From positions 1-64,000 of IMG/VR virus record IMGVR_UViG_3300020438_002794: a stretch of DNA of 64,000 nt. One strand, 5' to 3'. Shown here in pieces: positions 9,522-33,850 of the stretch. The DNA is from a virus. Numbering within the stretch: the stretch's first letter is position 1; every line of letters starts with the position of its first letter. Position numbers and translations under genes: made by a program. The notes under the pieces are model-generated. The model did no database searches. It saw only the letters and a list, made by a program, of their open reading frames with translations, and was not told the origin of the DNA.

Positions 9522-10340
9522 CTATATAGTATATTTGTAATCAAATATATCGTCATCTGCCATCCACTCATATACTTGTTCTAAGTTATTTACAAGATTT
9601 CCTTTGTGTCCTTGTTTGTATTTTATCTTCTTATAAGTATCAACCGGTTGTGAGTCAAACCCCAACAGTGGAAGTATCTGTTCAACATCATGTTGCCAAT
9701 CTTCATAATGTATAACATTTTGTATTTGTCCACGCTGTTTAAAGTGTTCAAATAAACGATTTGTTTTTTTCAATGCTTGCACATAAAAATCGTAAATCTG
9801 GTAGTTTATATCAAATGATTCAACATCTACAGTCTGATCCTCAAAACCAATGTGCATAATGTTTGTATGCTTGCTTACCAAATTACTTAATATCTGTTCT
9901 CTTATATCTCGTCTTGCACAGAAAATAAAACTATATCCATCAAGCAAACTAGTATCTTCAAAATATTTCAAAAACGTTTCTGTTTGTATTTTAAAAAAAC
10001 TTTTGTCTTGGTTAGTAACATTTTGTCTAAGCAACTGACTTCTTTTTTTAACTTCTTTTAAGTATCTTTCAGTACCTATTTCGAACGGCTTAGGATTATT
10101 GAGGATAAAGGTACGCTGTACGGATCCATCTATTTGGTCATATGTTTTTATATATGTTCCGTCAGGTAATGGCAGTTTATAAGGTACATTTATATCTTTT
10201 CCGTTTTCGTCATATCTCATCAGATTTTCAGATATACTAGTAATCTCTCCAATATAGTCTTTGTTATGGGCTTGTGCTAAACATTGACCAACAACTGTAC
10301 TGCCGGTTCGATTAAAACTGAGTATTGCAAGTGTTTTCAT
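9522..10340 (-). CDS. Sulfotransferase family protein
   Basis: 272 aa. The N-terminal LSFNRTGSTVVGQ (8-19) is a 5'-phosphosulfate-binding loop like that of PAPS sulfotransferases (R-S/T-G-S/T pattern). A central region FIFCARRDIREQILS resembles the 3'-phosphate-binding segment with R and S residues. It transfers a sulfuryl group from PAPS to a hydroxyl or amine; the acceptor is unknown. Start codon overlaps the upstream radical SAM stop (ATGA). It is distinct from the pair at 40-42 kb. Confidence 0.75.
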   Translation of the reverse strand: MKTLAILSFNRTGSTVVGQCLAQAHNKDYIGEITSISENLMRYDENGKDINVPYKLPLPDGTYIKTYDQIDGSVQRTFILNNPKPFEIGTERYLKEVKKRSQLLRQNVTNQDKSFFKIQTETFLKYFEDTSLLDGYSFIFCARRDIREQILSNLVSKHTNIMHIGFEDQTVDVESFDINYQIYDFYVQALKKTNRLFEHFKQRGQIQNVIHYEDWQHDVEQILPLLGFDSQPVDTYKKIKYKQGHKGNLVNNLEQVYEWMADDDIFDYKYTI

Positions 10341-11458
10341 ACCTTTCTCTTAGGTATTTTACTATCAGCACTACTAACGCAACTAGGACTAATACAAGGC
10401 ATAGGCTGATCAAATAACTTAAATCCTGTCTCGATGTTGCCAAGAGGAACATCATAGCAACTGTAGCTACGTTTGATACTTCCGTCAGGTTCTCTAATGA
10501 TAATACCTTGATAGCCTGCATTGCAACTCCAGCCTTTAAACTTGTTAAAGTTAAATGCATTAAATCTCTCCGCTTGATCCATGTACCATTTTTTGCCTTT
10601 ACTATCTTGAAATTCAATTTGCATGTGCCAAGGTACACTAGCATCATTTTCGCCTATTGTGTAAGGCGGCAGTTCGAAACTAGGCCTTGGACGAGCATTC
10701 CACTTGCGTTTTGACTCTGTATACGCCATTTGCGGCATACCGTTCCACAATCGCTGTAGCATTTCGTCTGTATAACCGTCCACGACTCTACTTGCCGTTG
10801 GGTCCGATTGAGGTTTGAGGGTAACGTTGATTCCTTGGTTGTGGAAGAATAGGGCATTATCCCAATCTTTCTCAAACCAGTCTGGAACCATAACCATGTT
10901 GATTGTAATTTGTACATCATGTTCCTGACAGAAGATGAGTTTGTCGGCAAACTCTTGCATCTTCTCCTTTGTATTTAAGTGTTCTGTATGTAGGCTAGCT
11001 GTGATACTAGCTCTATGAAATGGCTTTGCATACTCGACATATTTCTCAAACCATTTCATATTGCGACTACAATTTGAGGTCATATGGATACTAGTATAAT
11101 TGGTATTAGGCACATCATTAGCAAGGTGTAAGAGGATTTCCAAATAGCCAGGATGAAAAGTAGGCTCACCGCCAGATAAGCTAAAATGAAAACTATTAAA
11201 TCCATTGTCTCGTGCCTGCCTTTTTATCTCATCGATTGTATGAATACAGAGCTGTGTGGGCCTGTGATCTTTGCGATCTGATCGGGCGTATGGCCAACAA
11301 TAACTGCACTTATAGTTGCAAAAGCGACCAAGAAGCCAACTAACAGTAAACAAATCTCTGTATAGTAGCGTCCTTTGTCCGACCGAAACCAAGTCATCAA
11401 ACGGTATTTTTGTAAAGTCATAATCACTCCACTTTAAATCTTCATTGGATTGTGCCAT
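10337..11458 (-). CDS. Radical SAM protein with C-terminal twitch domain
   Basis: 373 aa. Core motif C47xxxC51xxC54 (RFCNYKCSYC) and SGGEP near 95-99, the SAM-binding GGE motif. The C-terminus (about 310-365) has GWSCNAG, SYSCYD, GNIETGF and PCISPSC, a cysteine set of the twitch/SPASM type that would bind an auxiliary Fe-S cluster. It resembles the proteins at 18556 and 42374 (same W...C.G, G.IE, C...C ending). SPASM/twitch enzymes modify peptides, sugars or nucleosides; the substrate is unknown. Confidence 0.9.
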   Translation of the reverse strand: MAQSNEDLKWSDYDFTKIPFDDLVSVGQRTLLYRDLFTVSWLLGRFCNYKCSYCWPYARSDRKDHRPTQLCIHTIDEIKRQARDNGFNSFHFSLSGGEPTFHPGYLEILLHLANDVPNTNYTSIHMTSNCSRNMKWFEKYVEYAKPFHRASITASLHTEHLNTKEKMQEFADKLIFCQEHDVQITINMVMVPDWFEKDWDNALFFHNQGINVTLKPQSDPTASRVVDGYTDEMLQRLWNGMPQMAYTESKRKWNARPRPSFELPPYTIGENDASVPWHMQIEFQDSKGKKWYMDQAERFNAFNFNKFKGWSCNAGYQGIIIREPDGSIKRSYSCYDVPLGNIETGFKLFDQPMPCISPSCVSSADSKIPKRKV

Positions 11459-11612
11459 CTAATCGTTTCTCTAGGTATTCGATAACTGCTGGATAAAGAT
11501 CATTAGGCTTTTCTGCATGTAGCTCACGCACCGCATTCAGTTCATGTTCTAAGAATTCTCTAACAGTCCAACTTTCATAATCGCTGTTGGTTGCATGTAC
11601 TTTAAATTCCAT
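11442..11612 (-). CDS. Small ORF, 56 aa, probable gene
   Basis: ATG at 11612 to TGA at 11442. It overlaps the 3' end of the nucleosidase-like gene by 11 bases and the start of the radical SAM gene by 17, filling an otherwise empty 143 bases. The product is acidic and helical (starts MEFKVHATNSDYESW; contains REFLEHELNAVREL and ends EYLEKRLDGTIQ). Its position directly before a radical SAM gene makes a precursor peptide or accessory role worth testing; no leader or core motif recognised. Confidence 0.6.
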   Translation of the reverse strand: MEFKVHATNSDYESWTVREFLEHELNAVRELHAEKPNDLYPAVIEYLEKRLDGTIQ

Positions 11613-12150
11613 TTCTTACTTTCTCCGTAAAAATTTCTGCGCCATTGGCTACATTAGTAGTCCAGTCGTCCATAGCGTTTTCATCTGCCATATCACTAAT
11701 ATACTTAAAACTTCTAAATTTAATATTATATTCTCTGGCTACATAAGCCAATGCCCAACCTTCCATATCCACACAATCTATATTTTGTTGTTCAAACCAT
11801 GGGTCAGGTTCCATAACAAAACTATCACCTGTACCACAACGTATACCTTGTCCTGATGTTTGTATTTCACCTAACAATGGTTCAGTAAACGGAATACTAC
11901 CTCTGGGTGCTTGTGGCTCCGCCATCATATCACGCTGTAAAAATGAACCAACTTCATGTAGTCCACTAATACCACTTACACCACCTGCAGTACCGTAATT
12001 CCAAATTTCAACTGGTTTATAAACGTGACATAAACTTTTTGCAAGTGCAGTAGCCGCTTGTACTTTGCCTACTCCAGTATATATTACTGTGTATCCATTC
12101 ATTTTAAAATCAGGTAGTTCAGCTTCTAGAGCTACACATATTGTTATCAT
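11602..12150 (-). CDS. MTA/SAH-nucleosidase-like (nucleoside phosphorylase superfamily)
   Basis: 182 aa, short compared with about 230 for bacterial MTA/SAH nucleosidases. Motifs in order: VALEAEL with E9/E11, TGVGKVQAA (25-33), NYGTAGG (51-57), CGTGDSFV (105-112), DMEGWALA with E130, and ISDMAD with D153. These match the catalytic Glu and Asp of the family. Such enzymes hydrolyse MTA, SAH and 5'-deoxyadenosine. The last is the by-product and inhibitor of radical SAM reactions, so placement in a radical SAM operon is meaningful (inference). Confidence 0.82.
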   Translation of the reverse strand: MITICVALEAELPDFKMNGYTVIYTGVGKVQAATALAKSLCHVYKPVEIWNYGTAGGVSGISGLHEVGSFLQRDMMAEPQAPRGSIPFTEPLLGEIQTSGQGIRCGTGDSFVMEPDPWFEQQNIDCVDMEGWALAYVAREYNIKFRSFKYISDMADENAMDDWTTNVANGAEIFTEKVRNGI

Positions 12151-12695
12151 TGTTGCCTCGCCTGCATTGGATCAATGCTTATCTCATTTATATTAACATC
12201 TTTTGGCTGTTCTATCAACCACTTTACATATCTAGCGGCTTGATCAATACTCATACATACCCTGTCAGGGTGCTTGTGTTGATTGTTGCTGAGTGTACCA
12301 AAACTTATGTAGCTGGTCTTTGGTCCGCTGTGCCATACTCCTAATAAAGATAAGCTATTGCTGTAGTCACGCAATGCTTTCTTTTCAGCATTATACAACC
12401 AAGCTGATCCTTTCTTAGTTCTATCAGTAGTTGAGCCAATACATACAATATGTGCTTCGCTTTTGGCTGTTCTAAGCGCCTTGTATACTATATCCAGTAG
12501 GACAGTTTGATGAAAGCGCCATAATGCACTGTTTATTATAATTATGTCATGTTTAGTACATTCGTTTGCAAATGTAAACATATGATCTGTTTTAGTTAAA
12601 TCGTATCCTGATTCTCTGCTACAAAAAACAGCATTTGGATACAGTTTATGTAATGCTTGTGCAACACCTTCTTTGGGATTACCTGTTATAATCAT
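12147..12695 (-). CDS. Short-chain dehydrogenase/reductase, compact
   Basis: 182 aa, shorter than the usual 250. TGNPKEGVA at 4-12 stands for the TGxxxGxG nucleotide loop, NSA at 55-57 for NAG, S88 in CIGST, and Y101xxxK105 (YNAEKKAL). All three catalytic residues (S, Y, K) are present, so a reduced but probably active NAD(P)-dependent oxidoreductase. Overlaps the upstream radical SAM gene; its AGGAG (complement of 12702-12706) lies inside that gene's last codons. Substrate unknown. Confidence 0.72.
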   Translation of the reverse strand: MIITGNPKEGVAQALHKLYPNAVFCSRESGYDLTKTDHMFTFANECTKHDIIIINSALWRFHQTVLLDIVYKALRTAKSEAHIVCIGSTTDRTKKGSAWLYNAEKKALRDYSNSLSLLGVWHSGPKTSYISFGTLSNNQHKHPDRVCMSIDQAARYVKWLIEQPKDVNINEISIDPMQARQQ

Positions 12696-13836
12696 ATGTC
12701 TCTCCTCTTATTTTATCTAATTTTGTACTCCATTCTACAAAATATTTTTGATGTCGTTCAATACTATCATGTGTTAATTCTTTTATTATGTCTTTGAAAT
12801 ATTCATGGTCAGGATATCTTTGTTGTAATCGCAATACCTGTTGCATAGCTTGTTGTTTTTGTTCATCACTAGCATGTCTTGCCTGTAGTTGTTTTGGACC
12901 AGTTAATACTCTGTGTTCAATATAATCGATGCCTACATAACTTAAACACCAATTGTAAAACTCTTCTAAGTTACACATATTGTATACTTGATAAGTTCCG
13001 TTCAAACTCAGTGTATTATGCCATTCGTCTCTGCCTCCTTTTTGCCATTTATTGAGTTGCTGAATCTTAACATTTACTTCTTCCCATGTATAGTTATAGC
13101 CACGCATATATGGATACAAATCTCCAGTTGCGTCTATACTAACATGTATTTGAGTTCGCAAATAGTCTTTCAACTCTTCTAGTCTGGACACATCTAATTT
13201 GCTGGCATTTGTAGTAATTAACAATTTTACTTTTATCGGATCAACATATTGTTTTAGTTTATCCAAAAAGTCAAACACACTATTGTCCATAAATGGTTCA
13301 CCGCCTGTTATCCATATGCCATGTAGTTCTCCAAGCTCAGGGCCAAACTCTTGCAAAAACTTGTCTACATCTATTTGTTGTTTGGGATTACTTTGACTAG
13401 CGTCATATTTACCACCCATTTTTTTCCAGTCTGGTATCCACGCATTACTAAAATGTGGACCACACATTCTGCATTTAAAATTGCATATATTATTAAAGTT
13501 CATATATAAATGTTTTATTTTATTTCTGCGAACGTTTAAATTTTTTACATAAACATTCTCTTCACCCATATACTTTTTTTCGCCTTTTTGCGAAAACCAT
13601 TTGTTACGTCTACTGGTCTGTCCGTTTTGCTCTTTGTACCAACAACTATGACAACCATCTTCGTCCCATTTACCCGCAAGCATGTCAGTACGCAGAGTGG
13701 TAAACTTATCGTTACTCCATGCATCACGTTCGATTGGACCCATGTTGTAGTTACTCATCATGCATCTTGTTAGCCAATTGTTTGGATTAACTGCAAGTGT
13801 TACAAATGGCATTGGGCAATATGTATCTTTATGCAT
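12679..13836 (-). CDS. Radical SAM protein, N-terminal twitch type
   Basis: 385 aa. N-terminal cysteine domain YCPMPFVTL (C7), RCMMSN (C25, single rather than CC) and GCHSC (C62, C65); then the radical SAM motif C118xxxC122xxC125 (NICNFKCRMC) and WITGGEPF. The C-terminus ends LDKIRGETYDYNR, a shortened form of the LDxxR tail of its neighbours. It is the most divergent member of the tandem array. Likely a 5'-deoxyadenosyl-radical enzyme with an auxiliary Fe-S cluster; substrate unknown. Confidence 0.9.
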   Translation of the reverse strand: MHKDTYCPMPFVTLAVNPNNWLTRCMMSNYNMGPIERDAWSNDKFTTLRTDMLAGKWDEDGCHSCWYKEQNGQTSRRNKWFSQKGEKKYMGEENVYVKNLNVRRNKIKHLYMNFNNICNFKCRMCGPHFSNAWIPDWKKMGGKYDASQSNPKQQIDVDKFLQEFGPELGELHGIWITGGEPFMDNSVFDFLDKLKQYVDPIKVKLLITTNASKLDVSRLEELKDYLRTQIHVSIDATGDLYPYMRGYNYTWEEVNVKIQQLNKWQKGGRDEWHNTLSLNGTYQVYNMCNLEEFYNWCLSYVGIDYIEHRVLTGPKQLQARHASDEQKQQAMQQVLRLQQRYPDHEYFKDIIKELTHDSIERHQKYFVEWSTKLDKIRGETYDYNR

Positions 13837-15031
13837 AATGACTCCATTCAGGATAAGCTAGTGCGAAACTTTGTTTACGACTTGTATCTAGAAGACCTTG
13901 TACTCTTCTAAATTCATTGAGATCGATATCTTCTTTTGTGTTATCTAGTGCATAATCTATTGCACCTTTTATTTTATTTAAGTGCTTGATTACCAGAGGT
14001 TTTTGTGCAGATTGGATCCTATCACTATAAAAGTTGCTAGCCCTGTCTAAATCTTTTTTATAAAAATTCATAATACTCATTTCAAACGGATCTTGTACAA
14101 TATTAAAAACAAATTCTATATCTGAATAGTATTCAACCATGTCTGCCAAATGATACATGTTCATCCAGCTTATACCTGCATGAAAGTTTAAATGCCACTG
14201 TGGGCCTTGATTGCGGACAAACTCTGCATACTGTTTTACATTAGCGTCAACTATATGCCAATCATCTTTTGCACTTCTGGCCCAAGCATGACGTTGTCCC
14301 ATACCTTCAGCACTTATTTGTATTCTTTTATTTTTATTACCTTTAAAATGACTGAACTGTTCTAGTAGATCATATTTGCCATATTTTATTGTTGTACCAT
14401 TTGTTATCAAACTTAATGCTATATCAGTATTGCCTACTCTGATTATTTCTTCCAGCATCTGATAAGTTCCAGGCATAATAGTTGGCTCACCGCCTGCCAT
14501 TTTTATTTTCTTTACATAAGGTAAATGCGTTTTAAAGTCGTCCCATTTCATATCAAATTCTGCAATGCCAGTTTTTGGATTAACGTTTGACACTTCCATG
14601 CCCAGCATCTTAGCTTCTTTAAGCCAAAGATTACTGCTACTCAACCCACAGAATCTACATTTATAATTGCACAAGTTGCTCCAGCGTATATCCAAATACT
14701 CCAAGTGAAAGTTGTCCATACTCCCATCTGCATTAGTAACTGAACGGGCTTGTTCTTCATCCCACCAATGATATGTTTTCAAACTAAATGTTCGTACACT
14801 ATCGTCAGATAACTTTTCTCTGTTATTGCATTTCCAACACATGCTAGGCACAGTGTTAGGATCGAGTAGTTCTAATCTCAATTTTTTCATAATTGAATTG
14901 TTTGCTGTTTCAGCTATTGTGCTAGCCATTTCAAAAGGGTCTTTATACGTTTCACAACAGGCTTGTACTTGCCCGCCACTTCTGAACATCAAATGATTCC
15001 AAGGCAAAGGACAAAAGAAATCATTGCTCAT
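13829..15031 (-). CDS. Radical SAM protein, N-terminal twitch type (duplicate of neighbour)
   Basis: 400 aa. FFCPLPWNHL (C7), QACCET (C25, C26) and CWKC (C65, C68), then C121xxxC125xxC128 (NLCNYKCRFC) and MAGGEPTIMPG. The tail is LDTSRKQSFALAYPEWSHYA. Very similar along its length to the next upstream gene (15021), including IAETANN and LLDPNT, so a tandem duplication. Its last codons (TGG AGT) supply the GGAG Shine-Dalgarno of the following gene; its own GGAGG lies in the upstream gene, seven bases before the ATG. Confidence 0.92.
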   Translation of the reverse strand: MSNDFFCPLPWNHLMFRSGGQVQACCETYKDPFEMASTIAETANNSIMKKLRLELLDPNTVPSMCWKCNNREKLSDDSVRTFSLKTYHWWDEEQARSVTNADGSMDNFHLEYLDIRWSNLCNYKCRFCGLSSSNLWLKEAKMLGMEVSNVNPKTGIAEFDMKWDDFKTHLPYVKKIKMAGGEPTIMPGTYQMLEEIIRVGNTDIALSLITNGTTIKYGKYDLLEQFSHFKGNKNKRIQISAEGMGQRHAWARSAKDDWHIVDANVKQYAEFVRNQGPQWHLNFHAGISWMNMYHLADMVEYYSDIEFVFNIVQDPFEMSIMNFYKKDLDRASNFYSDRIQSAQKPLVIKHLNKIKGAIDYALDNTKEDIDLNEFRRVQGLLDTSRKQSFALAYPEWSHYA

Positions 15032-16238
15032 ATAAGTGCCTCCACTCTGGAAATATATCTATAAAACTTTGATTTCTGCTTGCATCTAATATGTTATGAA
15101 TAGATTTAAAGTATGCTATATCAAAATCATTACTGGTATTTCTAACACAATTTTCGATAGTTTGTTTAACCTGTTGTAAATGTTTAGTAACCCGAGGAGG
15201 TAATGGACAGTCTAATATCCTTTCGTAATGTTGTACACAACGTTCAAGTTCACTGCGGGTAAAAGCATTTATATTAAGTTCGGTTGGAAAAGTTACAAGA
15301 TTAAAGTCAAACTCCATATCGGGATAGGCTTGTATAAAACTGGGCAGATGCCATAGGTTTACCCAAGAAATACCTACATGGAAAAATGCGTTTCTGCGGA
15401 CGTTGTTTGGTGCTGTCACAGTGAAACTTTTGTATTTTTCAATATTTTTAGCAACATTATCCCAGTCTGTTTTCCCAGCTCGTTGCCAATCATGTCTAAT
15501 TCCCATACTTTCTGCACTAATATGTATTCTGACAGAGTTAAAATTTTCTAATAGACTTAATATATTATATTTTCCATATTCAACTTTAGATGCATTTGTT
15601 ACCAAAATTAGCTGTAAATCAAGATTGCCTATGTTAATAAGTTCTTCCAACAGTTGATAAGTGCCGGGCATAATAGTTGGTTCACCGCCAGCTAGTTTAA
15701 GTTTTTTTAGATAAGGCAAATGTGGTTTTAAATCTTCCCAGTCTATGTTGTATTCTTTGATGCCAGTTTTTGTATCATAACCTGTGTATTTTCCTCTTCC
15801 TAATTTATATCCTAATAGCTTATGATCTTTAAGCCAAAGGTTACTGCTACCTAAACTACAAAATCTACATTTGTAATTGCATAGATTACTTGACCTGATA
15901 TCTAGATACTCTAGGCGAAAGTTATCTGTTGTACCGTCGGGATAAGTTATTTCCTTTGCTGATTTAGGATTGATATGTGGAAATACTTTTAAATTATTTG
16001 TCCTCATACTAGGGACTGATGAATTTTCTTTTTTAACACAAATATGACACATTTTAGGAGTTGTGTTGGGATCTAATAGATCCAATCTAAGCTGACGTAA
16101 AACGGGATTATTTGCTGTTTCTGCTATAGTTTCACTAGGATCAAACTGATTCTCCCATGTTTCACAACAGGCTTGTACTTTGCCATTGGGTTTAAAAAAC
16201 AAATGATTCCAAGGTAAAGGACAAAAGAAATTATTCAT
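15021..16238 (-). CDS. Radical SAM protein, N-terminal twitch type
   Basis: 405 aa from ATG at 16238. A TTG three codons upstream also opens the frame, but this ATG aligns with the start of its duplicate at 13829 (M..FFCPLPWNH). Twitch cysteines FFC, QACCET, CHIC; radical SAM motif C120xxxC124xxC127; LAGGEPTIMPG for SAM binding; tail LDASRNQSFIDIFPEWRHLYEQ is cysteine-free. In this tail TGG AGG encodes the strong GGAGG site of the next gene. Function: a radical-dependent modification of unknown substrate. Confidence 0.92.
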   Translation of the reverse strand: MNNFFCPLPWNHLFFKPNGKVQACCETWENQFDPSETIAETANNPVLRQLRLDLLDPNTTPKMCHICVKKENSSVPSMRTNNLKVFPHINPKSAKEITYPDGTTDNFRLEYLDIRSSNLCNYKCRFCSLGSSNLWLKDHKLLGYKLGRGKYTGYDTKTGIKEYNIDWEDLKPHLPYLKKLKLAGGEPTIMPGTYQLLEELINIGNLDLQLILVTNASKVEYGKYNILSLLENFNSVRIHISAESMGIRHDWQRAGKTDWDNVAKNIEKYKSFTVTAPNNVRRNAFFHVGISWVNLWHLPSFIQAYPDMEFDFNLVTFPTELNINAFTRSELERCVQHYERILDCPLPPRVTKHLQQVKQTIENCVRNTSNDFDIAYFKSIHNILDASRNQSFIDIFPEWRHLYEQ

Positions 16239-17385
16239 AATGCTCAAACTCCGGAACTATACTGTGCAAGTTTTCACTTCTGCTAGCGTCTAGTGTGTGC
16301 GTATACTTGTAAAAAGCTGGTAGTTTTTCACTCCAATCCTCATGCCACATGTAGTCAATTATGCCTTGTACTTTGGGCAAATGCACATATGGTTTTAATT
16401 GTTCATGTGCTTGCTGTTTAAGTGCATTGGGCAACACTCTTATATTCAAATATTCAGGATGATTTAATATATTAAAATATATTTTATGCCCGTATGGCTT
16501 GGCCCATTCTATAAATTGGGGCATACGCAATATGTTATACATTTGCACTGTACAATGTATTTCTATATTTGCATTATCAAGTGTTTGTATACTTTCAAAG
16601 TTTTCTAACACTGTCTGCCAACGACTGGGATGTCTGATATAATGATCTAGTTCACCCACAGCATCTATTGAACAGTTGAGTTGTATGCGTTTAAAGTGTC
16701 TCCATCTATCTAATAACCAACTGGGCATTTTAACCAAGTTGGTATTATATTTTAATCTTATATCTTTTGCTGTGCCGTTGTCAATAAAATAATCTAATAA
16801 ACGCTGTTGTTTTTTAATTACAGTTGGTTCGCCACCTGTTAAGTATATTTCTTCAACAGTGTGTGCAATAGCAAACAAGTTTTGCCAAGTCTTTTCTTCT
16901 TCGGGCCAATCCATTCTGCTGAGACGTTTGTATTCACTTTCACTTAGTGCAGTTTCAACACTGGCCCACTCCTTTACCCACATGTTACTGGCATAGGGAT
17001 TACACATTCTACATTTTAAGTTGCACAAGTTGCTGAGCCTAAGATCCACATATTTGATATCAAATGGAGCATCTTCAGTATACTGTTTGTCTTCACTCCA
17101 TTTTTCATTCCATGCTTGTCTGGCACTGCGGATACCTGCGTCCTCTTCTCTAAAACAACGTGTACACATCTCTGGTCGTTCACTGTTTAACAGTTGCTTG
17201 CGGATCTCGGCATATGTTTCACTGTTCCATGCTTGTTGCATATCATCTCTGTACAGCTTATAAGGAGTTCCGTCGGGCTTGAGAATAAAGTTTTTGCCCG
17301 GTGTGCTATTACAACACACTCTCAAGTTACCACTTGCGTTTGTAGCTAGATGCATCCAAGGCAATATGCAAAACGTATCAGACAT
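16231..17385 (-). CDS. Radical SAM protein, N-terminal twitch type
   Basis: 384 aa from ATG 17385 (the upstream TTG is unlikely). TFCILPWMHL, RVCCNS, AWNSETYAEIRKQL, MCTRC form the N-terminal cysteine domain; core motif C121xxxC125xxC128 (NLCNLKCRMC), YLTGGEPTV; tail LDASRSENLHSIVPEFEHYE. The CCGGAG of the tail PE codons (CTCC at 16249-16252) is the likely Shine-Dalgarno for the next gene. It is a clear member of the array family and a useful consensus example. Confidence 0.92.
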   Translation of the reverse strand: MSDTFCILPWMHLATNASGNLRVCCNSTPGKNFILKPDGTPYKLYRDDMQQAWNSETYAEIRKQLLNSERPEMCTRCFREEDAGIRSARQAWNEKWSEDKQYTEDAPFDIKYVDLRLSNLCNLKCRMCNPYASNMWVKEWASVETALSESEYKRLSRMDWPEEEKTWQNLFAIAHTVEEIYLTGGEPTVIKKQQRLLDYFIDNGTAKDIRLKYNTNLVKMPSWLLDRWRHFKRIQLNCSIDAVGELDHYIRHPSRWQTVLENFESIQTLDNANIEIHCTVQMYNILRMPQFIEWAKPYGHKIYFNILNHPEYLNIRVLPNALKQQAHEQLKPYVHLPKVQGIIDYMWHEDWSEKLPAFYKYTHTLDASRSENLHSIVPEFEHYE

Positions 17386-18559
17386 ATGGTGCAAACTCCG
17401 GTACTACGTCAACAAGATTGGTGTTTCTTGTACTGTCTAATGTTTGTGTAAAACGTAAGAACTGTTTAAAATATTGACTTTCATCTTTAGCATTCATAAA
17501 TGCCATATTTTGATTAATAAATCTATGTATACGTTTATTGCGTTCACCTCTGGGCTCTACTGTATTTAAATATTTTTTATATTTTTCAGTGGCTTTTTGT
17601 TTTAATTCCTCGGGCAATACTTGTGGATTAATGAATATAGGATCCCATGCTATATTACCATGCACAGGAGTATCCAATATACGTTCAAAGTATTCATAGC
17701 TTTCAGGTAATCCAAACACATTCCAAGCACTGTAGCACAGTGCCGCTCTACCAATATATTTGTTGCCCAGTTCAGCTTTCACTAATTTTAAATTTTCTGC
17801 TAGTACATCAGTATCTGATTCAGTTCTTATATAATTGTTTAATTCAGGATGTCCGTCTATGCTTAAACTAAGATCAACAGCTTTGAACTTTGCCCAACTG
17901 GCTATAGTATCAAACTTTCCGAACTTGACTTTGCTGAGATTTGTGCTATACTTAACACTTATATTAGTGGCAAAGGGCTCTAATGCTTCCAACACTCTAT
18001 AGTGCAGTGGATCCATAAGTGGCTCACCTCCTGCAAATTCTACTATTTCAATGGTAGGTGCTAGTCTCAGTATGTCTTGTATAAATTGATCATTATCAAA
18101 ATTTGTTTGTCTTGCAGTATCATTGTGTAGTCCTAAACTTTTATACTCATGTTTAACTGCACTCCAGTCTTTCATCCATGTTGTACTCAGCTCAGGCTTG
18201 CAAGTTCTGCATCTGAAGTTACACAAGTTGCTCATTTTAAGTTCTAATACTGGTACTACAAACGGCATCTCTATGGTGCATGTATCGGGAATCATGTGTT
18301 GTCTGGTCTTGTTCATACTTTGTCGCATACTAACTGAACCTTGATCTTCCATATCCCAACACTGAAAACAGTGTTTGTTACGCACACCTGTTAATAAATC
18401 TTTTCTTAGTTGCTGTTGACGCTCACTGTTCCATGCTTGTTCGAAAGTCATGTCTTTTATATTGCCCAATGTATCTCTACTGCGACAACAAGGAGTTATA
18501 TCACCATTGGGTCTAGTGCTTAGGTGTGTAAATGGTAATACGCAAAATGTATCAGTCAT
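17378..18559 (-). CDS. Radical SAM protein, N-terminal twitch type
   Basis: 393 aa from ATG 18559, which overlaps the upstream TGA as ATGA. TFCVLPFTHL, TPCCRS, AWNSERQQQLRKDL and HCFQC form the N-terminal domain; core C113xxxC117xxC120 (NLCNFRCRTC); FAGGEPLMDP; tail LDSTRNTNLVDVVPEFAPYV. Same plan as its neighbours, with different substrate-region sequence, which suggests a different target rather than a mere copy. Confidence 0.92.
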   Translation of the reverse strand: MTDTFCVLPFTHLSTRPNGDITPCCRSRDTLGNIKDMTFEQAWNSERQQQLRKDLLTGVRNKHCFQCWDMEDQGSVSMRQSMNKTRQHMIPDTCTIEMPFVVPVLELKMSNLCNFRCRTCKPELSTTWMKDWSAVKHEYKSLGLHNDTARQTNFDNDQFIQDILRLAPTIEIVEFAGGEPLMDPLHYRVLEALEPFATNISVKYSTNLSKVKFGKFDTIASWAKFKAVDLSLSIDGHPELNNYIRTESDTDVLAENLKLVKAELGNKYIGRAALCYSAWNVFGLPESYEYFERILDTPVHGNIAWDPIFINPQVLPEELKQKATEKYKKYLNTVEPRGERNKRIHRFINQNMAFMNAKDESQYFKQFLRFTQTLDSTRNTNLVDVVPEFAPYV

Positions 18560-19530
18560 GCTGTTTCCAACCATTTAGTTGTATTGAGATCTGCCGCACA
18601 GTTGCACCACTGCTTCATACAAAGCACAGGATCTTCTTCTAGCGTAAATCCAGTTTCAATATTACCCAATACTCCGCCTTGCTTGCACGTTGCTCTATAC
18701 ACACTACCATCATTGTCTATCATCAGTGTTTCAATACCAGCCATGCACTTCCATTTTTTAAATGTATTCCATTTGTTTTTGGTTAGTGTATTAACATTGT
18801 CCATCCAACTTTCATCTTGTGTAAACAATTCACAATTTAGCTCTGCTGTACCTGCACGATTAAAACTTTCCATATAGTCTAGCTCAGCTTGATTGTAATA
18901 ATTCTCTGCTCCGGCGTATTGTATACCGGCAAACTTCATGCCACTGCTATAAGGCTTGTTCATTTCGCCTGTTTGTAAATTGGTCATTGGTCTAATACGT
19001 CTTATATTAAATTGAATTTCGTTTGCATTAAGCCATTCAACTACTGAACGTATCTCTTGTAATTTTCCAGGCAAGTACATTAGGTGTACTTTTACTTGCT
19101 TGCGATTTAAATTGCTGAGTACATGTTTCATATGATCCACACGCAAAAATTCAAAGTGCCAACTGAATATCAAACTGTCAATTAATTCTAATGCACGTTG
19201 ATATTTTTCCAATGGCAAACTGCCATTTGTTATAGTACTGCATTCTTCTACTCCGTAACGTGGAAATAATTCTAATATATCCAATATGCGTGGGTGTACA
19301 AACGGCTCACCTCCAGTTATACTCATGCGTATTTGTTTGTCCGCATAAAACTCACGCATGGTCTTCACAGCATATTCAAACTTTTCAAAAGGCAAGTGCT
19401 TGCTTTTGTTGTCGTGTAGGTCTGCACCGCAATAGCTACAATCAAAGTTACAGCGTCTACCCATGTTCCATTCAATGCGTACCCACTCTTTATACTTTTT
19501 ATTGCTGTGTTCTACTCTTACCAGTTGCAC
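18556..19530 (-). CDS. Radical SAM protein with C-terminal twitch domain
   Basis: 324 aa. Starts GTG at 19530 after AAGGTGAG; the start overlaps the upstream stop. Core C27xxxC31xxC34 (RRCNFDCSYC), SITGGEPFVHP. C-terminal cysteines in KCMAGIE, ATCKQG, LCMKQWCNC with GNIETGF. It breaks the run of N-twitch genes in the array with the opposite domain order, like 10337 and 42374. Related to SPASM/twitch enzymes; substrate unknown. Confidence 0.9.
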   Translation of the reverse strand: MQLVRVEHSNKKYKEWVRIEWNMGRRCNFDCSYCGADLHDNKSKHLPFEKFEYAVKTMREFYADKQIRMSITGGEPFVHPRILDILELFPRYGVEECSTITNGSLPLEKYQRALELIDSLIFSWHFEFLRVDHMKHVLSNLNRKQVKVHLMYLPGKLQEIRSVVEWLNANEIQFNIRRIRPMTNLQTGEMNKPYSSGMKFAGIQYAGAENYYNQAELDYMESFNRAGTAELNCELFTQDESWMDNVNTLTKNKWNTFKKWKCMAGIETLMIDNDGSVYRATCKQGGVLGNIETGFTLEEDPVLCMKQWCNCAADLNTTKWLETA

Positions 19531-20825
19531 TAAAACTCACCTTTCAGTTCAGGTATACAATCTAATACATTTGTTCCTCTTATACGATCTAATTCTCTAG
19601 TAAAATGTTTGAATAATTCCCATTCTTTTTCTTTATATTTGGGATTTTTCATTGCATCTCTTAGACGATCCAGAGCATGATAGTTTTTATCCCATTTATC
19701 TAAAACACGTTGTTTAATATGAGGTGGCATATTATTGATATCCAAGTAAGCAGGCTTTGATACTAGATCTGCAAAATTATTCGGTCTTTCATATCTAGTT
19801 GGACTGTCACTGGTTCTATCAGCTATCACATGCCACCAATGATCTAAATCTCCAGTAACTCGTTCTATCCAGTCAGATAAATTTTGTAAATCAAATATAT
19901 TATATATACTGATAGCAATGCTAAAGTATCCTCTTACATTATCAAATTGATCATACCATTTTAAGTTTTGTTCCAACTGTTCAATTGTTTGTACATTACT
20001 GCCTCTGATGTACTGATAAAGATCACCAGTTGCTTCAATGCTAACATTGAGTACAACACGTTTAAAATGAGGCCATAGCCTTTTAAGTTTTTCAGGTACT
20101 CTTGTTCCATTGGTGGTGTATCCTAACGTAACATTAGGCGCACTGCCATTTGCAACCAATATCTCCAGCACTTCGTACATTCCATCCTGCATCAAAGGTT
20201 CGCCGCCTTTGAAGTCGATGCGTTCCATTTGACTAAGTTTGTCTTCCATGTTTTTATATAAACTAGGATTTATGCTTCTTACTGTAGTATTTTCTAAATG
20301 TCTTTGAAATTGTGGATTTATTTGTTGTAATTTTTTATCTTCTTTGAACCAATGTGTGCTTCCCCAACTGCCACACATTCTACACTTTAGATTGCAAGTA
20401 TTACCAAAGTTTAAGTCCATGTGTTTTAAATTCATTGGAGGATTATTTAAGTAAGCGTCGGGTCTATTTTCTATTTTTTCCAACATCCATTGTCGTCTAC
20501 TAATACCTGCGGTGCTTTCATTTTTCCAACAATCTTGACAACCCTGAGGTTTTTCTTTTGCCAACATTTGTTGTCTCATCTTTTCCATACCTTCCCAAGC
20601 ATCTTGTAGTGTATGACCTTTATATATATTCAGATGTTCAGTTTCTGCCTTCCAATCAGGAGTTCTTCCAGCTTCTTTTGCTATTCTCTGATCGGAAGTA
20701 AACTTACAACAAGGTTTAATATCTCCATTGGCGCTTAGTGTAATACTAGTCCATGGCACTATACAAGTAGGAAGATCTCCGGGCCAAGCATCACCAATTC
20801 TATACTTTTTATCAATATAGGTCAT
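19530..20825 (-). CDS. Radical SAM protein, N-terminal twitch type
   Basis: 431 aa. TCIVPWTSI, KPCCKF, CQDCWKNE form the N-terminal cysteine domain (C21, C39, C40, C96, C99); core C144xxxC148xxC151 (NTCNLKCRMC); FKGGEPLM; tail LDRIRGTNVLDCIPELKGEF. The ATG overlaps the upstream TGA. It has a longer insert between the CC and CxxC pairs than its neighbours. One of eight consecutive radical SAM genes (12.7-22.2 kb). Confidence 0.92.
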   Translation of the reverse strand: MTYIDKKYRIGDAWPGDLPTCIVPWTSITLSANGDIKPCCKFTSDQRIAKEAGRTPDWKAETEHLNIYKGHTLQDAWEGMEKMRQQMLAKEKPQGCQDCWKNESTAGISRRQWMLEKIENRPDAYLNNPPMNLKHMDLNFGNTCNLKCRMCGSWGSTHWFKEDKKLQQINPQFQRHLENTTVRSINPSLYKNMEDKLSQMERIDFKGGEPLMQDGMYEVLEILVANGSAPNVTLGYTTNGTRVPEKLKRLWPHFKRVVLNVSIEATGDLYQYIRGSNVQTIEQLEQNLKWYDQFDNVRGYFSIAISIYNIFDLQNLSDWIERVTGDLDHWWHVIADRTSDSPTRYERPNNFADLVSKPAYLDINNMPPHIKQRVLDKWDKNYHALDRLRDAMKNPKYKEKEWELFKHFTRELDRIRGTNVLDCIPELKGEF

Positions 20826-22228
20826 AGTAATTCTGCTAATATAGGAAACACCTCAGGAAACTTGTTTCCCCAGTTGCGTTGTTTATTAATTAAATTTAAC
20901 CATTGTTTAGTTTCTGGAAGTCTAGCACTCCAGTCTTCTTGATTCATAAAGTTAATGATACCTTTATAACGTTTAATACCATATGGATTATTATCAAATG
21001 TTTCTTTATCAATGCCAGCTTCTTGAACACCTGTAAACCTATGCCAGTTTTCGTCTATCCAAGGATAAAATTCTTGTTCATATTTGTCTGTTACCTGTTG
21101 TTTGATATGTGCTGGTAATACTTTTAAGTTGAGTTGTGGTGGCCAATAAGCAAAGTGCATGTTAATTCCGCCTGCACCCAAGGGCCATTTGTTTATTTTC
21201 TTAAACCCTTGATCAACTTTCCACTTGACAAACTCTGGTATATAATGTACATTGAGAGCCATAATAGTAGTAGCTGTGGTAACTTCTACTTGTGGAGCAG
21301 TTTCATCCAACAACCAAAATACCTTTTCTTGGTGTTCCCATACACTGGGATAGCGTATATAATCATTGTGTTCACCGTGTGCATCTATGCTGTAGTGAAA
21401 ACGCACACGTTTAAACTCTGCCCATAGATCAAATAAATCGTCACGCCATTCAACAGCATTTGAGTTGTAGCGTAATTCAATATTTTTAGCATAACCTTGT
21501 TTAATACATTCTTCTAATAGATCGTAGTGTTGATTAATAATTAAACTTTCGCCACCAGCAAAGTACAGTTGATACATGTGCGGAACTTGTTCCATTAGTT
21601 CTTTCCAAAAGCGTGGATTGTTCATGTGCCAATTGTATGTTGCTCCGTGGTTTTTGCCTTTGTTGTGCCAGCCGCTGGTATTTTTTAATTTTTCATTGTC
21701 TATTTGTGGATAAATGCTGTTCCATTCTTTGACCCAGCCACTTGAATCATGTGGGCTACACATAACACAAGCCAGCTGACATTTTGTACCCATACGCAAA
21801 TCAATATAGCGTATTTTAGGTTCTACTCTACCGTCGGCTTCTGTAGCTTTAGCTAGATCAAATAGATCATATCTATTTCCCCAATACTCTGTCTCCCAGT
21901 TGCGTTTGCTTAAATGTCCAGCTTCTTCCTCTTTGTAGCATTTTAAACAGGGTGCTGGCTTCTCTCCACGCAACATCATTTTGCGAACATTACGCATGTA
22001 ATCCGAATTCCATGCATCAGTCAAACTGGTTGTATTAAAGTTAGCTGGAACACCGTCGTCATTTTTAACTACGCCAACTTCACCGCCGCCTACTTTTTTA
22101 TTACTGTCTGGGTCTTGAACACTGCTGGCATTTGATGTACAGCATGTTCGCATTTTGCCATCTGGTCTGCTTGATAAGTGTAACCAAGGTAACGCACAAA
22201 ATGTCGGGCTAATTTTGTCTGTTTTCAT
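20822..22228 (-). CDS. Radical SAM protein, N-terminal twitch type
   Basis: 468 aa, the longest of the array. TFCALPWLHL (C11), RTCCTS (C29, C30), CLKCYKEEEAG (C94, C97); core C150xxxC154xxC157 (TKCQLACVMC); FAGGESL replaces GGEP. The tail is KQRNWGNKFPEVFPILAELL, a diverged form of the family ending. A glycine-rich insert (KKVGGGEVGVV) follows the CC pair. It is the first of the eight-gene run, with a small gap upstream and no clear Shine-Dalgarno; TTAAATACAT lies just before the start. Confidence 0.9.
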   Translation of the reverse strand: MKTDKISPTFCALPWLHLSSRPDGKMRTCCTSNASSVQDPDSNKKVGGGEVGVVKNDDGVPANFNTTSLTDAWNSDYMRNVRKMMLRGEKPAPCLKCYKEEEAGHLSKRNWETEYWGNRYDLFDLAKATEADGRVEPKIRYIDLRMGTKCQLACVMCSPHDSSGWVKEWNSIYPQIDNEKLKNTSGWHNKGKNHGATYNWHMNNPRFWKELMEQVPHMYQLYFAGGESLIINQHYDLLEECIKQGYAKNIELRYNSNAVEWRDDLFDLWAEFKRVRFHYSIDAHGEHNDYIRYPSVWEHQEKVFWLLDETAPQVEVTTATTIMALNVHYIPEFVKWKVDQGFKKINKWPLGAGGINMHFAYWPPQLNLKVLPAHIKQQVTDKYEQEFYPWIDENWHRFTGVQEAGIDKETFDNNPYGIKRYKGIINFMNQEDWSARLPETKQWLNLINKQRNWGNKFPEVFPILAELL

Positions 22229-22243: not shown

Positions 22244-23326
22244 CTATGTAAATTGTTCAGCAAAGGGATCAAATTCCGTTCCGCACTTCATAGCACATAC
22301 ACCTAATTTTCCTTGCTTTACACTGGGTAAATTCCAACTGTTTTCAATATTATTTAACAATGATCCTTGCATAACTGTGTGTAGATCATTGTTTATTACA
22401 TCAATTCCCTCTTTCCCACCAGCGAGATCAATGTGTTCCCACACTTGTTCTATACGATAATCTTTATGCCACCATTTGTACATACGACCAGCAACCCAAC
22501 AACAAGGCATTAACAATCCTTCTGCTGTAATAAAGATTGATTTTTCTTCAGCTACTTTGCATTTTATATCACAACTATCATAATAATCACGCATACTTCC
22601 ATATGTTTTTTCTATTTCTTTTTGTTTTAATAGTGCTAGATTTTGATTACTTAATTTTTTAGGCTTCTCTAATAGCTGTGTTTCAACACCTTTTCTATTT
22701 TGTGCTTGGTGTGTGTCTTTCCTCTGACTGTTGGCATTAAAGAATCTACCCGACTTTTTCTTTTGAAAGCGTTCTACTCCCCATTCTCGGGCAAGTGCTT
22801 CTGCTTCTTCAACTTGATGTTCGTTGTGTCCAAATATAATAAAGTCCCAACGAGCTCTTCCGCCTGCGTCACAAAATGCTCGCATGTTGCGTTCTACATT
22901 ATCCCATACAACATTTTGCCTATACAGATGATTAGTGTCGCTAAGACCGTCAACTGAGAATATAACGGCACCTTTCCGACCAATTGTTTTAGCAAGCGTC
23001 TGCCACCATTCAATATCTTTTGCTCCAGCATTTGTGTTCATACTTAGCCACATGTCGGCGTTGTGTTGTCTAAAATATTCAAATACTTCCAGTGTATCCT
23101 TGGCTACTATAGGATCACCCAAGTTGCCGCACATGTACATGGTGTGTAATTGTTGGATAAAGTCAGGTGTAAAGATACGTTGACAGTCGTGTAAACTTAG
23201 TTCACTATTATCTATATGGCGGTTGTCTACACCACCATTTTCATTTCTATCGCACATTGGACATGCCGCTTGACATTTTTGTGTAATTTCCAAATGTACT
23301 GTTCTAATATCTTCATAATTATACAT
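22244..23326 (-). CDS. Radical SAM protein with C-terminal SPASM/twitch-like domain
   Basis: 360 aa. HLEITQKCQAACPMCDR gives C18xxxC22xxC25, the form common in phage-type SPASM enzymes. C-terminal cysteines in CDIKC, MPCCWVAG and CAMKCG suggest auxiliary cluster binding. Overlaps the upstream small gene by eight bases. It differs from the N-twitch family and resembles 35075 in overall plan. Confidence 0.88.
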   Translation of the reverse strand: MYNYEDIRTVHLEITQKCQAACPMCDRNENGGVDNRHIDNSELSLHDCQRIFTPDFIQQLHTMYMCGNLGDPIVAKDTLEVFEYFRQHNADMWLSMNTNAGAKDIEWWQTLAKTIGRKGAVIFSVDGLSDTNHLYRQNVVWDNVERNMRAFCDAGGRARWDFIIFGHNEHQVEEAEALAREWGVERFQKKKSGRFFNANSQRKDTHQAQNRKGVETQLLEKPKKLSNQNLALLKQKEIEKTYGSMRDYYDSCDIKCKVAEEKSIFITAEGLLMPCCWVAGRMYKWWHKDYRIEQVWEHIDLAGGKEGIDVINNDLHTVMQGSLLNNIENSWNLPSVKQGKLGVCAMKCGTEFDPFAEQFT

Positions 23327-23543
23327 CTAATATTAGTTTCACATCCTTACCAGGACCTGTTTTGCTGGGCAGGTCTCCGTATGTATTTACATACCATTCG
23401 ATAACTGCACGGTACCATAGTTGACTGTTATGATGTGCTTGTTGATTGAATTGATGAATATTATTGTTGGTTGCCGCCATTGCACTCAATGCCCTAGCAC
23501 TTTCTATTTGTAGATCCCTAAGTTTCAGATCGTCTAGATTCAT
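23319..23543 (-). CDS. Small hypothetical protein, 74 aa
   Basis: Starts ATG 23543 overlapping the upstream TGA, with GGAAAG ahead of it. Helical, Ala/Gln/Asn/His-rich (RALSAMAATNNN, HQFNQQAHHNSQLW) with a C-terminal YGDLPSKTGPGKDV segment. No cysteine. Directly before a radical SAM gene, so a substrate peptide or accessory protein is possible, but no precursor signature is recognised. Confidence 0.65.
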   Translation of the reverse strand: MNLDDLKLRDLQIESARALSAMAATNNNIHQFNQQAHHNSQLWYRAVIEWYVNTYGDLPSKTGPGKDVKLILDV

Positions 23544-24571
23544 TTCTTTCCAATCAGCATAAACCTATTATAAAGTTGTGTGTCTAATTCACCTTCATAG
23601 TATATTGTACGCATCGGATATTTCTTTTTTGCTTCTTTAACGTTTTTTACACAATTAATATGTTGTGAATTACTAAAATAATCATTTGTTTGTAAACACA
23701 CAAAAGTATCCTTAGGTAAACGCTCAAACCAAGTTTCATCCATATGTTCACAACTGGTGTTTATAACCAGGTCAGGCTGAACCCAAATTTCCACGTTGTT
23801 GCCTTCCATATTTTTAGTTCCAACTATAAAACTAGCTTCATCGTCGTAGGTGATATCATCAACATCTTGCCATACACTTTTAAACTGCCATTGGTTATTA
23901 GTTTGTACATAGTTAAAATCATCTGCCATTTGTATGCACTGAACATCTTTTTCAAGACTTAAATATTTTTTAATATCAAAATTTTGAAAGAATAACTGTG
24001 CAACAGTAGCATACCAGCCTCCGTATTGTACTACTGTGCCTAACTTGGGAGGGTGTGCTATTCCTGTTTGTTCTGTTACAATTTTTTTAAGTTCATCTAC
24101 CATCCATAACTTGCTACACATTTGTCCTCTGCTGAAATGCTCATTGAGATTTGCCTGTGTTTCCCATTTAATGCACCAACTGCTGATTCTTCTGATATAT
24201 TCGTCGTCGATGCAGTGTGCAATATAACGAGCTATCTTTCTATGCGTGACATATTTCCAGCCTATATGATGTGACATTAGTATGTTAATAAATTCTTCAC
24301 TGAATTCGATTCGTCCTCTGTTTATTTCACCAACTATTAATCTTTTTATTTTCCAAACATTACCATGTAATACTGCTTTTTTAATATTCATAAACATATC
24401 AAGTTGAGGATGATCAATATGTGTAAGGTATTCTTCAATTCCGTGTATCCAAAAGAAGTCTAACGTGGGTTTGTATATTATTAATTGTTCCCCGTCTTCA
24501 CCTTTGATTACCTTTTCTTCACCTATTAGGAGTTTACCGTCTTCGTTTATTTCGTCAAGTTGCGGCATCAA
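23540..24571 (-). CDS. Hypothetical protein, possible SAM-methyltransferase fold
   Basis: 343 aa. The C-terminal half reads like a Rossmann-like methyltransferase: GTVVQYGGWYATVAQLFF (about 190-207) at the nucleotide-loop position, then CIQMADDF, VINTSCEHMDETWFERLP and VCLQTNDYF. The N-terminal half is helical and charged, with no recognised domain. If a methyltransferase, it would make SAH, a substrate of the nucleosidase-like neighbour. The classical GxGxG is absent, so the call is tentative. Confidence 0.55.
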   Translation of the reverse strand: MMPQLDEINEDGKLLIGEEKVIKGEDGEQLIIYKPTLDFFWIHGIEEYLTHIDHPQLDMFMNIKKAVLHGNVWKIKRLIVGEINRGRIEFSEEFINILMSHHIGWKYVTHRKIARYIAHCIDDEYIRRISSWCIKWETQANLNEHFSRGQMCSKLWMVDELKKIVTEQTGIAHPPKLGTVVQYGGWYATVAQLFFQNFDIKKYLSLEKDVQCIQMADDFNYVQTNNQWQFKSVWQDVDDITYDDEASFIVGTKNMEGNNVEIWVQPDLVINTSCEHMDETWFERLPKDTFVCLQTNDYFSNSQHINCVKNVKEAKKKYPMRTIYYEGELDTQLYNRFMLIGKK

Positions 24572-25259
24572 ATGTCTCCTTTAACCATTCAAAATCATTA
24601 ATTAAATTTAATGTTTTTGCATTATTTCTATATGTTCGACCAAAGTCAGTACCTTGTGTTGCACCTAGTATTGCGTATTCACCGTTCTGTCTATTAGCAC
24701 CTTTGCTTTGCCATACTTTTAATCTATACTCATTGTCAGTGTTGTCACCGTGTTCGATAATAGCACTGGCTAGTTTAGTACATTCTCTAAACGCACTGCG
24801 CCATGCATTAAAAGGATCTGTATTAAACGCTGTGATGTTACTGATTTGAAACTTGGGAACAAATGGACAACCTATACTTGTAGTCATATCCACATTCCAG
24901 TCTTTTGCATCTAATAGTGCTTTGCGTGGGAACAGCTTTGCACCACCATATCCGTACAATAGATCATTCACTGGATTTTGACTGCGCCATACAAACACAC
25001 AATCAGTTTCGTATACGCCGGGCCATTGTTCTTTGCGAGGTCCTGGTGTAAAATTAAAATTAAACTGTTCGTCTATAATAGCATCAGCATCAATAACATA
25101 AAAGTTTCTAGTTTCTGCTAGTTTTGCCGCGGCTTTGTGTGCCGCAAAAATACCTTCAACACCCTGTACACGCTTGGCGTGGGGTGCGAACAGTTGCAGT
25201 AATTCAAAATTGTCATCAGCATATGGCTCATGATAGCTAATCTGAATAACATCTAACAA
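24555..25259 (-). CDS. Glycosyltransferase-like protein (GT-A, DxD)
   Basis: 234 aa. Starts at TTG 25259 with GGAG nine bases upstream, the first gene behind a consensus promoter. IQISYHEPYADDN...AAHKAAAKLAETRNFYVIDADA: the IDADA (D57, D59) after a strand is the metal-binding DxD of GT-A nucleotide-sugar transferases. Closely parallels the protein at 47054 (same ISYxEP...AAHKAAA..AET..F..IDAD order), so the two are paralogs. Donor sugar unknown. Confidence 0.68.
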   Translation of the reverse strand: MLDVIQISYHEPYADDNFELLQLFAPHAKRVQGVEGIFAAHKAAAKLAETRNFYVIDADAIIDEQFNFNFTPGPRKEQWPGVYETDCVFVWRSQNPVNDLLYGYGGAKLFPRKALLDAKDWNVDMTTSIGCPFVPKFQISNITAFNTDPFNAWRSAFRECTKLASAIIEHGDNTDNEYRLKVWQSKGANRQNGEYAILGATQGTDFGRTYRNNAKTLNLINDFEWLKETFDAAT

Positions 25260-33204: not shown

Positions 33205-33850
33205 CGCCTAAACCTTTTTTAATCATCTGTCCTAAAACAGTGTTTCCTTTTTGTGTAAAGTGTAAATCCGGATTGTGTAAATCTTTTTTGTAAAACAGTT
33301 GTTCAGTTGCAGGCTTTACATCTAAGTATTTAATATATTTATATGGGTACTTAACTCCAGTAAAACTGTAGCTGTATGTGGGCAATCCTGTTTGTTGGGC
33401 TAGACGATCCAAGTGACTTGCACATGCTTTAGTTAGTATATTCCAACTGTTTTCCATTTGCCAAAACCAATCACTCATTCCTTGTTGCCATTTGAAATTA
33501 TATTGGTTAGCAATTTTGTTTTGCACTTTAGGTAATCCTCCTAGTCTATTATGAAATGCATTATCTATTGTCCATGCAAAAACATTGAGTCTAGATGTAT
33601 AATACTCAAGTTGTTTCTGTATTACAATTCTAGGTTCCCATGTCTCTTGTATAATTATAGCACTATATTTTTTTATGTCAATTGATTCTAAACATGCACA
33701 GTAGCTCATAATGCCACCTCCTGGATGTGCATAAACTTGATATGGCCGATCAAGTTCATCATACCAGCAATAGTCTGTGTGTAGTGTTTCTGTTGTATTG
33801 TCGTAGCTGTACCAGCCCATACTAAAACTACAACCTAATATTAATATCAT
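33191..33850 (-). CDS. SGNH/GDSL-like hydrolase or transferase
   Basis: 219 aa. ILGCSFSMGWYSYD (4-17) is the nucleophile block; PGGGI follows; the C-terminal NPDLHFTQKGNTVLGQMI contains the D-x-H catalytic pair. A clearer triad than its paralog at 32359. Likely a deacetylase or acyltransferase acting on a sugar; substrate unknown. Start overlaps the upstream TGA. Confidence 0.7.
   Translation of the reverse strand: MILILGCSFSMGWYSYDNTTETLHTDYCWYDELDRPYQVYAHPGGGIMSYCACLESIDIKKYSAIIIQETWEPRIVIQKQLEYYTSRLNVFAWTIDNAFHNRLGGLPKVQNKIANQYNFKWQQGMSDWFWQMENSWNILTKACASHLDRLAQQTGLPTYSYSFTGVKYPYKYIKYLDVKPATEQLFYKKDLHNPDLHFTQKGNTVLGQMIKKGLGDGLQ

Follow-up and report, generated by a model that had tools for sequence, protein, structure and literature searches.

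Radical SAM enzymes with a twitch domain ahead of the core: a gene array in a marine T4-like phage with counterparts in Bdellovibrionota

The radical SAM array and its family

The DNA analysed here (the window) is a 64,000-nt part of an 87,129-base virus record of IMG/VR (IMGVR_UViG_3300020438_002794). It contains an array of eight consecutive genes (12679-22228), seven of which encode radical S-adenosylmethionine (SAM) proteins with a cysteine module placed before the core. All eight genes are on the minus strand, and adjacent genes overlap by 1-19 nt. The source virus is a marine T4-like phage. Baseplate, portal and replication genes of T4-like type, named by eye from their translations, are found at the right end of the record, the portal being about 52% identical to portals of cultured phages with large T4-like genomes; an open reading frame (ORF) of 3240 aa flanks the tail-type genes at the right.

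Membership of the array genes was assessed with the NCBIfam model NF033640 (N_Twi_rSAM, twitch domain-containing radical SAM protein), whose curated cut-off is 170 bits for the whole-protein score. Nine window proteins (N1 to N9, Table 1) score 235-419 bits, nearly over their full length: the seven of the array, and N8 and N9 further along the window. They are members of the family, with its domain order and length, and the original prediction that these nine share a single layout is thus confirmed. It had overlooked a tenth, divergent relative, which scores under the cut-off, is not counted as a member, and has its SPASM match before the core. The odd gene of the array, R324, is a radical SAM protein without the front domain. 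The family itself is already known and named by NCBI, as the original prediction had it; its description as a phage family was too narrow, since it is also chromosomal in Bdellovibrionota. In PHROGs only unnamed radical SAM entries were found for the array, and nothing for the neighbouring S74 or U234/U325.

Identity among the window members is 19-34%, with N5/N6 (51%) as the single exception, which rules out recent tandem duplication as the origin of the array. Each member has relatives in other phages at 54-100% identity, and N1 and N2 also have relatives in bacteria at 50-59%. Conservation in the whole-family alignment (A1) is nowhere high enough for scanning a collection, and single proteins were used as queries. 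Judged by this divergence the array members are old, distinct subfamilies, and the array is for this reason read as a multi-step pathway and not as one amplified enzyme.

The front cysteine module

Cysteine positions were examined in an alignment of 294 distinct full-length viral relatives of the family. Seven cysteines are conserved at 100%: C9, C27, C77 and C80 in the front module (residues 1-90), and C124, C128 and C131 in the core (about 110-310); the next commonest cysteine column reaches 21%. The offset between the first and second cysteines is 18 in 251 relatives, and the pattern C-x17-C...CxxC...CxxxCxxC is present in 267 of the 294 sequences compared to none of 14,700 shuffled ones. 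Among window proteins the pattern, at looser spacing, is confined to the nine members. In seven of the nine, Pfam SPASM (PF13186) matches near the N terminus, inside the first ~100 residues (one match slightly below cut-off); N6 and N7 have no match. Some elements of the order first proposed turned out to be less strict. FCxLPWxH at the front is a consensus with deviations (LPFTH in N3, YPWLS in N9, VPWTS in N4, MPFVT in N7). In the CC pair the first cysteine is invariant and the second is conserved at 81%, N7 having CMM. No conserved cysteine follows the core, but the tail, described as cysteine-free, is not devoid of cysteines, and its LDxxR...PE signature is a majority motif (D369 76%, R372 81%, P381 85%).

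The invariant CxxxCxxC, and the alignment of a predicted model to solved radical SAM barrels, place these proteins in the radical SAM superfamily; the four invariant front cysteines and a profile match to the BtrN twitch identify the twitch domain. In classical SPASM/twitch enzymes the module is C-terminal to the core, an arrangement which this family does not have. Among solved proteins, a profile of the front ~90 residues gave a single meaningful match, to BtrN in its C-terminal twitch (4m7s/4m7t, E 8e-5 and 1e-4), with the four cysteines in register; matches to prion protein (E>0.1) were regarded as chance. With the whole-family profile, positions 5-76 align to BtrN 184-257, again the C-terminal twitch (E 8e-8). 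The C-terminal twitch of the neighbouring R360 is another match of the front domain (hhalign 90%, E 2e-6), and the R360 and family cores align over 190 columns. Because of the BtrN match with cysteines in register and the R360 alignment, we consider the front module, on sequence grounds, to be a genuine twitch relocated to the other end of the protein, and the original placement of the auxiliary-cluster cysteines before the core holds. Four-cysteine sites can also bind zinc, so that the front cysteines might hold a zinc ion or form a structural module with no redox role; direct homology to the [4Fe-4S] twitch of BtrN, with the same spacing and ligand positions, makes this very improbable. The front module would instead hold an auxiliary [4Fe-4S] cluster, fully ligated by cysteines, and we hold this fold and ligation to be highly probable.

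The AF2 model of N2 (pLDDT 96, pTM 0.92) resembles AnSME, SkfB and CteB with VIA Z of 12-14; the Foldseek and VIA match lists are dominated by the radical SAM core, and the front domain is not probed by them. Its position was approached by mean-field coevolution on 558 sequences and 377 columns. Plausible strand pairs of the core were obtained (K111-E178, R116-Y181, Y181-N214, T279-L307), together with couplings from the front module to core beta1 (C25/N26/A88-D114 and L44/W53-I110) and from C24 and G84 to the vicinity of D241. These couplings suggest that the front module packs beside core beta1, where C-terminal twitch domains, such as that of SkfB, pack too. Relocation to the front would therefore be a rearrangement able to keep the same site, in effect resembling a circular permutation.

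Conserved neighbours in phages and Bdellovibrionota

Upstream of the array lie R360, a conventional radical SAM protein, the small ORF S74, and U343 and U234. N1 is the member best conserved across phages (98 viral stretches; 67-97% identity in the best 80 loci), and its Bdellovibrionota relatives are 58-59% identical. R360 is matched in 384 viral stretches. For 84 of 118 distinct R360 genes, N1 follows at a distance of at most four genes downstream; many of the other R360 genes are near contig ends. From their domain architectures, this pair combines a C-terminal with an N-terminal twitch. The order U234/U325-U343-S74-R360-N1 is recurrent, with cassettes inserted in between. A second pair, N9-N8, keeps its adjacency and order across phages and five bacterial loci, and is reversed in two further bacterial loci; these loci come from Bdellovibrionota or from metagenome-assembled genomes (MAGs) labelled simply as bacterial. 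The R360-N1 pair is likewise present in Bdellovibrionota. Fused double members in one reading frame were also found (L206:13465-16095, 876 aa; G080:C28:4820-7672, 1004 aa). Profiles of U234 and U343 gave no solved relative among PDB sequences; U343 was placed by its fold, Foldseek returning PDB methyltransferases (E 4e-7).

S74 raises the question of whether the array modifies a ribosomal peptide, as in ribosomally synthesised and post-translationally modified peptide (RiPP) pathways, S74 being the precursor or leader and R360, N1 and others the maturases. It lies directly upstream of R360 and is present in 138 of 164 R360-bearing loci, and SkfB and CteB, both RiPP maturases, rank among the top hits of the core in sequence and in fold. 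However, S74 is strongly conserved over its full length with no variable core, and most copies have no cysteine, which argues against a precursor; nor was it found beside R360 in bacterial loci L211 and L220-L223. Neither PHROGs nor cultured phages gave a match to S74. As to the enzymes, their front domain is a twitch and not an RRE. A precursor inside the array is ruled out, its genes overlapping or almost touching (N1 and R360 are 15 nt apart). A RiPP route through S74 is thus a weak possibility, and we judge it improbable.

Scanning 84,980 species genomes yielded 32 loci, mostly from Bdellovibrionota, a phylum with many predatory members. Family genes (E<=1e-50) are carried by 41 of 144 Bdellovibrionota genomes, several with about ten copies, compared to 3 of 149 genomes in the phylum to which an Acidobacteria MAG belongs and none of 14 control genomes. 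R360 relatives are present in nine of the ten copy-rich genomes tested, eight of them full-length at 42-48%. Islands in five genomes hold varying sets of R373 (59-67%), R360, N1, U234, U343, U182, and B12-radical-SAM, PP-loop and aminotransferase-like genes; the island of a sixth genome holds fewer of the families shared with the phage, which number about ten. In total 22 window genes have best-reciprocal matches in bacterial loci, which were selected for the family or R360, so that R373, U182, U343, U234 and the B12 enzyme were not selection criteria. Many of these genomes are MAGs, in which mis-binning of a single contig is possible; the islands look chromosomal, because serS, secE/nusG/ribosomal protein and htpG genes (named by eye) adjoin them. 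Most phage orthologs in the R360 tree group together in a clade of 119, separate from the bacterial ones, and for this reason the sharing does not look recent. At the level of gene content these results point to a multi-step pathway common to the phage and Bdellovibrionota.

Two further features of the bacterial loci were noted. One Bdellovibrionota genome (G005:C1:745-775 kb) has about a dozen N-terminal-twitch genes in 30 kb, denser than the phage array. In loci L225, L228, L230 and L231 a protein of 157-168 aa is repeatedly paired with a multi-span membrane protein of 279-329 aa, and no such pair was seen in the window; HTTM (PF05090) was not confirmed as the family of these membrane-protein pairs.

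Table 1. Genes of the array and of its surroundings in the window
Feature	Coordinates	Strand	Evidence
N7, N-terminal-twitch radical SAM, 385 aa, CMM instead of CC	12679..13836	-	NF033640 235 bits
N6, N-terminal-twitch radical SAM, 400 aa	13829..15031	-	NF033640 282 bits
N5, N-terminal-twitch radical SAM, probable ATG 16235	15021..16247	-	NF033640 275 bits; 51% to N6
N2, N-terminal-twitch radical SAM, 384 aa from ATG 17385, protein modelled	16231..17394	-	NF033640 397 bits; AF2 pLDDT 96
N3, N-terminal-twitch radical SAM, 398 aa	17378..18574	-	NF033640 343 bits
R324, radical SAM without front twitch, eighth array gene	18556..19530	-	PF04055; NF033640 29 bits, core only
N4, N-terminal-twitch radical SAM, 431 aa	19530..20825	-	NF033640 298 bits
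N1, N-terminal-twitch radical SAM, 468 aa, R360 partner	20822..22228	-	NF033640 419 bits
R360, conventional radical SAM, C-terminal twitch (C256, C275, C344, C348 invariant), 15 nt upstream of N1	22244..23326	-	
S74, conserved 74-aa small ORF overlapping U343 end and R360 start	23319..23543	-	142 loci
U343, class I SAM-methyltransferase-like fold	23540..24571	-	AF2 pLDDT 90; Foldseek; 145 loci
U234, conserved partner, relative of 47054-48031	24555..25259	-	133 loci (joint cluster)
Divergent tenth twitch relative	33847..35121	-	NF033640 70 bits; SPASM match 50-115
N8, N-terminal-twitch radical SAM, second gene of N9-N8 pair	44401..45699	-	NF033640 385 bits
N9, N-terminal-twitch radical SAM, first gene of N9-N8 pair	45699..47051	-	NF033640 356 bits
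U325, U234 relative, directly upstream of N9-N8	47054..48031	-	
R373, radical SAM, 59-67% to Bdellovibrionota island counterparts	10337..11458	-	
U182, small conserved protein after array; homolog in a bacterial island	12147..12695	-	
B12-binding-type radical SAM; bacterial islands hold members of its family too	5663..7144	+	
NodU/CmcH-type carbamoyltransferase, recurrent neighbour	29375..30856	-	PF16861/PF02543; 52 loci
GT8-like glycosyltransferase	48999..49913	-	Profile match to glycogenin, E 1e-5
GT8-like glycosyltransferase	49906..50817	-	Same cluster and glycogenin profile match as 48999..49913

Other minus-strand genes of the window were also noted. A 56-aa ORF at 11442-11612 (MEFKVHATNSDYESWTVREFLEHEL...) overlaps the start of R373, as S74 does that of R360, and a nucleoside phosphorylase-family gene (11602-12150) between R373 and U182 is also present in two related loci, with 93% identity. 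The ORF at 27081-29420 fuses a GFO/IDH/MocA oxidoreductase (Pfam, 33-112) to a radical SAM domain (405-573). MORN repeats are fused to a radical SAM domain and a methyltransferase-like domain at 36866-38239 and 38833-40284.

Proposed chemistry and relation to known systems

The functional context of the family was examined on both sides. Context genes in the window include carbamoyltransferase, NAD-epimerase, FkbM, sulfotransferase-like and GT8-like transferase genes; bacterial neighbours include GT2, GT1, Asp/Arg-hydroxylase, carbamoyltransferase and GDSL-lipase families, whereas no glycosyltransferase (GT) family with two or more members was listed among the farther genes of the same loci. 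In six Bdellovibrionota genomes with 71 family genes, 13 of 82 GT2 genes have a family gene no more than 5 kb away, compared to 1.7 expected (P 2e-8, an optimistic value because GT genes cluster among themselves), and ABC-transporter genes, used as a control in the same distance test, gave 2 of 89 with about 1.9 expected.

As to the reaction, the low-potential, fully ligated auxiliary clusters of BtrN, PqqE and SuiB are associated with two-electron oxidations, in contrast to the open-site cluster of MoaA, which serves a redox-neutral reaction (PMC9012708). By analogy with this contrast the four invariant cysteines favour oxidative chemistry, which we regard as slightly more likely than not. 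The auxiliary cluster would accept an electron from the substrate radical, and the enzymes, like BtrN, would carry out two-electron oxidations, either a dehydrogenation or the formation of a bond. R360-N1 and N9-N8 may partner on consecutive steps or as complexes. The likeliest substrate would be a sugar, or a glycan precursor, destined for a polysaccharide that is secreted or displayed on the surface. It would be tailored jointly with glycosyltransferases, methyltransferases, sulfotransferases and the carbamoyltransferase, and during infection the phage would in this way change the surface of its host or a product found there. A glycan-type substrate is proposed tentatively; for the explanation as a whole, permuted-twitch oxidative enzymes in a multi-step tailoring pathway of surface-glycan type, we would put the chances at about even.

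Several points weigh against this explanation, beside the clustering of GT genes already mentioned. No sugar-specific enzyme is common to all loci, and the steadiest partners (a methyltransferase fold, U234/U325, S74 and other radical SAM enzymes) would fit a pathway to a small molecule or a peptide just as well. The authors of the SkfB study caution that in this subfamily similarity is a poor guide to reaction and fold (PMC6231123). The proximity of the front cysteines to the active site is deduced from couplings and not from a measured distance; the coevolution signal is moderate (effective number of sequences 291, with 377 columns), and invariant cysteines yield no informative couplings.

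The explanation that ranks next is a diffusible small molecule, a specialised metabolite or a modified amino acid or nucleoside, made for phage and bacteria with the glycosyltransferases merely tailoring it. Genes for aminotransferase-like, PP-loop ATPase, hydroxylase, methyltransferase, B12-radical-SAM and carbamoyltransferase proteins indeed recur around the family, but the Pfam families listed for the loci include no assembly enzyme of non-ribosomal peptide synthetase or polyketide synthase type, and GT2 is strongly enriched; we consider such a product unlikely, though less so than a modified peptide. Modification of phage or host nucleic acid, or of a virion protein such as a tail fibre, is more doubtful again. 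The island does adjoin tail-type genes and a QueC-like PP-loop family recurs; on the other hand no further queuosine-type genes were seen, and the same families occur in bacterial chromosomes distant, by eye, from phage structural genes.

Compared to characterized enzymes, the closest likeness of the permuted-twitch proteins is to BtrN (2-deoxy-scyllo-inosamine dehydrogenase, 4M7S/4M7T), with which they have in common the four-cysteine twitch spacing (C-x17-C, CxxC), sequence similarity and the radical SAM core. The twitch of BtrN is C-terminal and its substrate is known, whereas the window enzymes have the twitch before the core and end in a C-terminal helical extension; they are not classed as BtrN-type dehydrogenases, the common ground apparent from sequence being the auxiliary module and the superfamily. 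SkfB, CteB, AnSME and PqqE likewise have the core fold and an auxiliary-cluster module, but their SPASM/twitch is C-terminal and the peptide enzymes carry an RRE, neither of which this family has.

Among viruses, distant relatives (20-24% identity) of the same overall fold are found in cultured T4-like phages, in KVP40-type Vibrio phage records with one to five matching places each, where the annotation reads radical SAM or MoaA/NifB/PqqE family. Twelve radical SAM genes have been described in one T4-like genome (PMC5332604), and pelagimyophages carry radical SAM cassettes (PMC7029224). Their host-recognition cluster, which lies between VrlC and gp14, is, as here, a variable island near tail genes with GT8 and radical SAM cassettes; the twitch order, the pairs and the bacterial counterparts are not named in the part of that account covered here. 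The name of NF033640 carries no function, and literature searches returned nothing on the function or twitch order of the family, nor any description of the dense array, the R360-N1 and N9-N8 pairs, the tenth relative or the Bdellovibrionota islands. Nor did the open-access papers searched describe the BtrN match, the conserved pairs, S74 or the islands shared with Bdellovibrionota.

These results indicate that an auxiliary-cluster module can occupy the opposite end of a protein with all its ligands still invariant. Both module orders are present in the adjacent partners R360 and N1, and the role of the auxiliary cluster is thus testable by comparison. More speculatively, and with less assurance than the substrate type, marine T4-like phages and Bdellovibrionota may have in common a transferable island, mostly of permuted-twitch radical SAM enzymes in obligate pairs, which would combine a C-terminal with an N-terminal twitch or two N-terminal ones; the heavily radical-modified surface or signalling product of the island would be a new chemical class. 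The results also link a large, functionally dark set of viral genes to chromosomal islands of Bdellovibrionota, which offer a bacterial system for the genetic study of the pathway.

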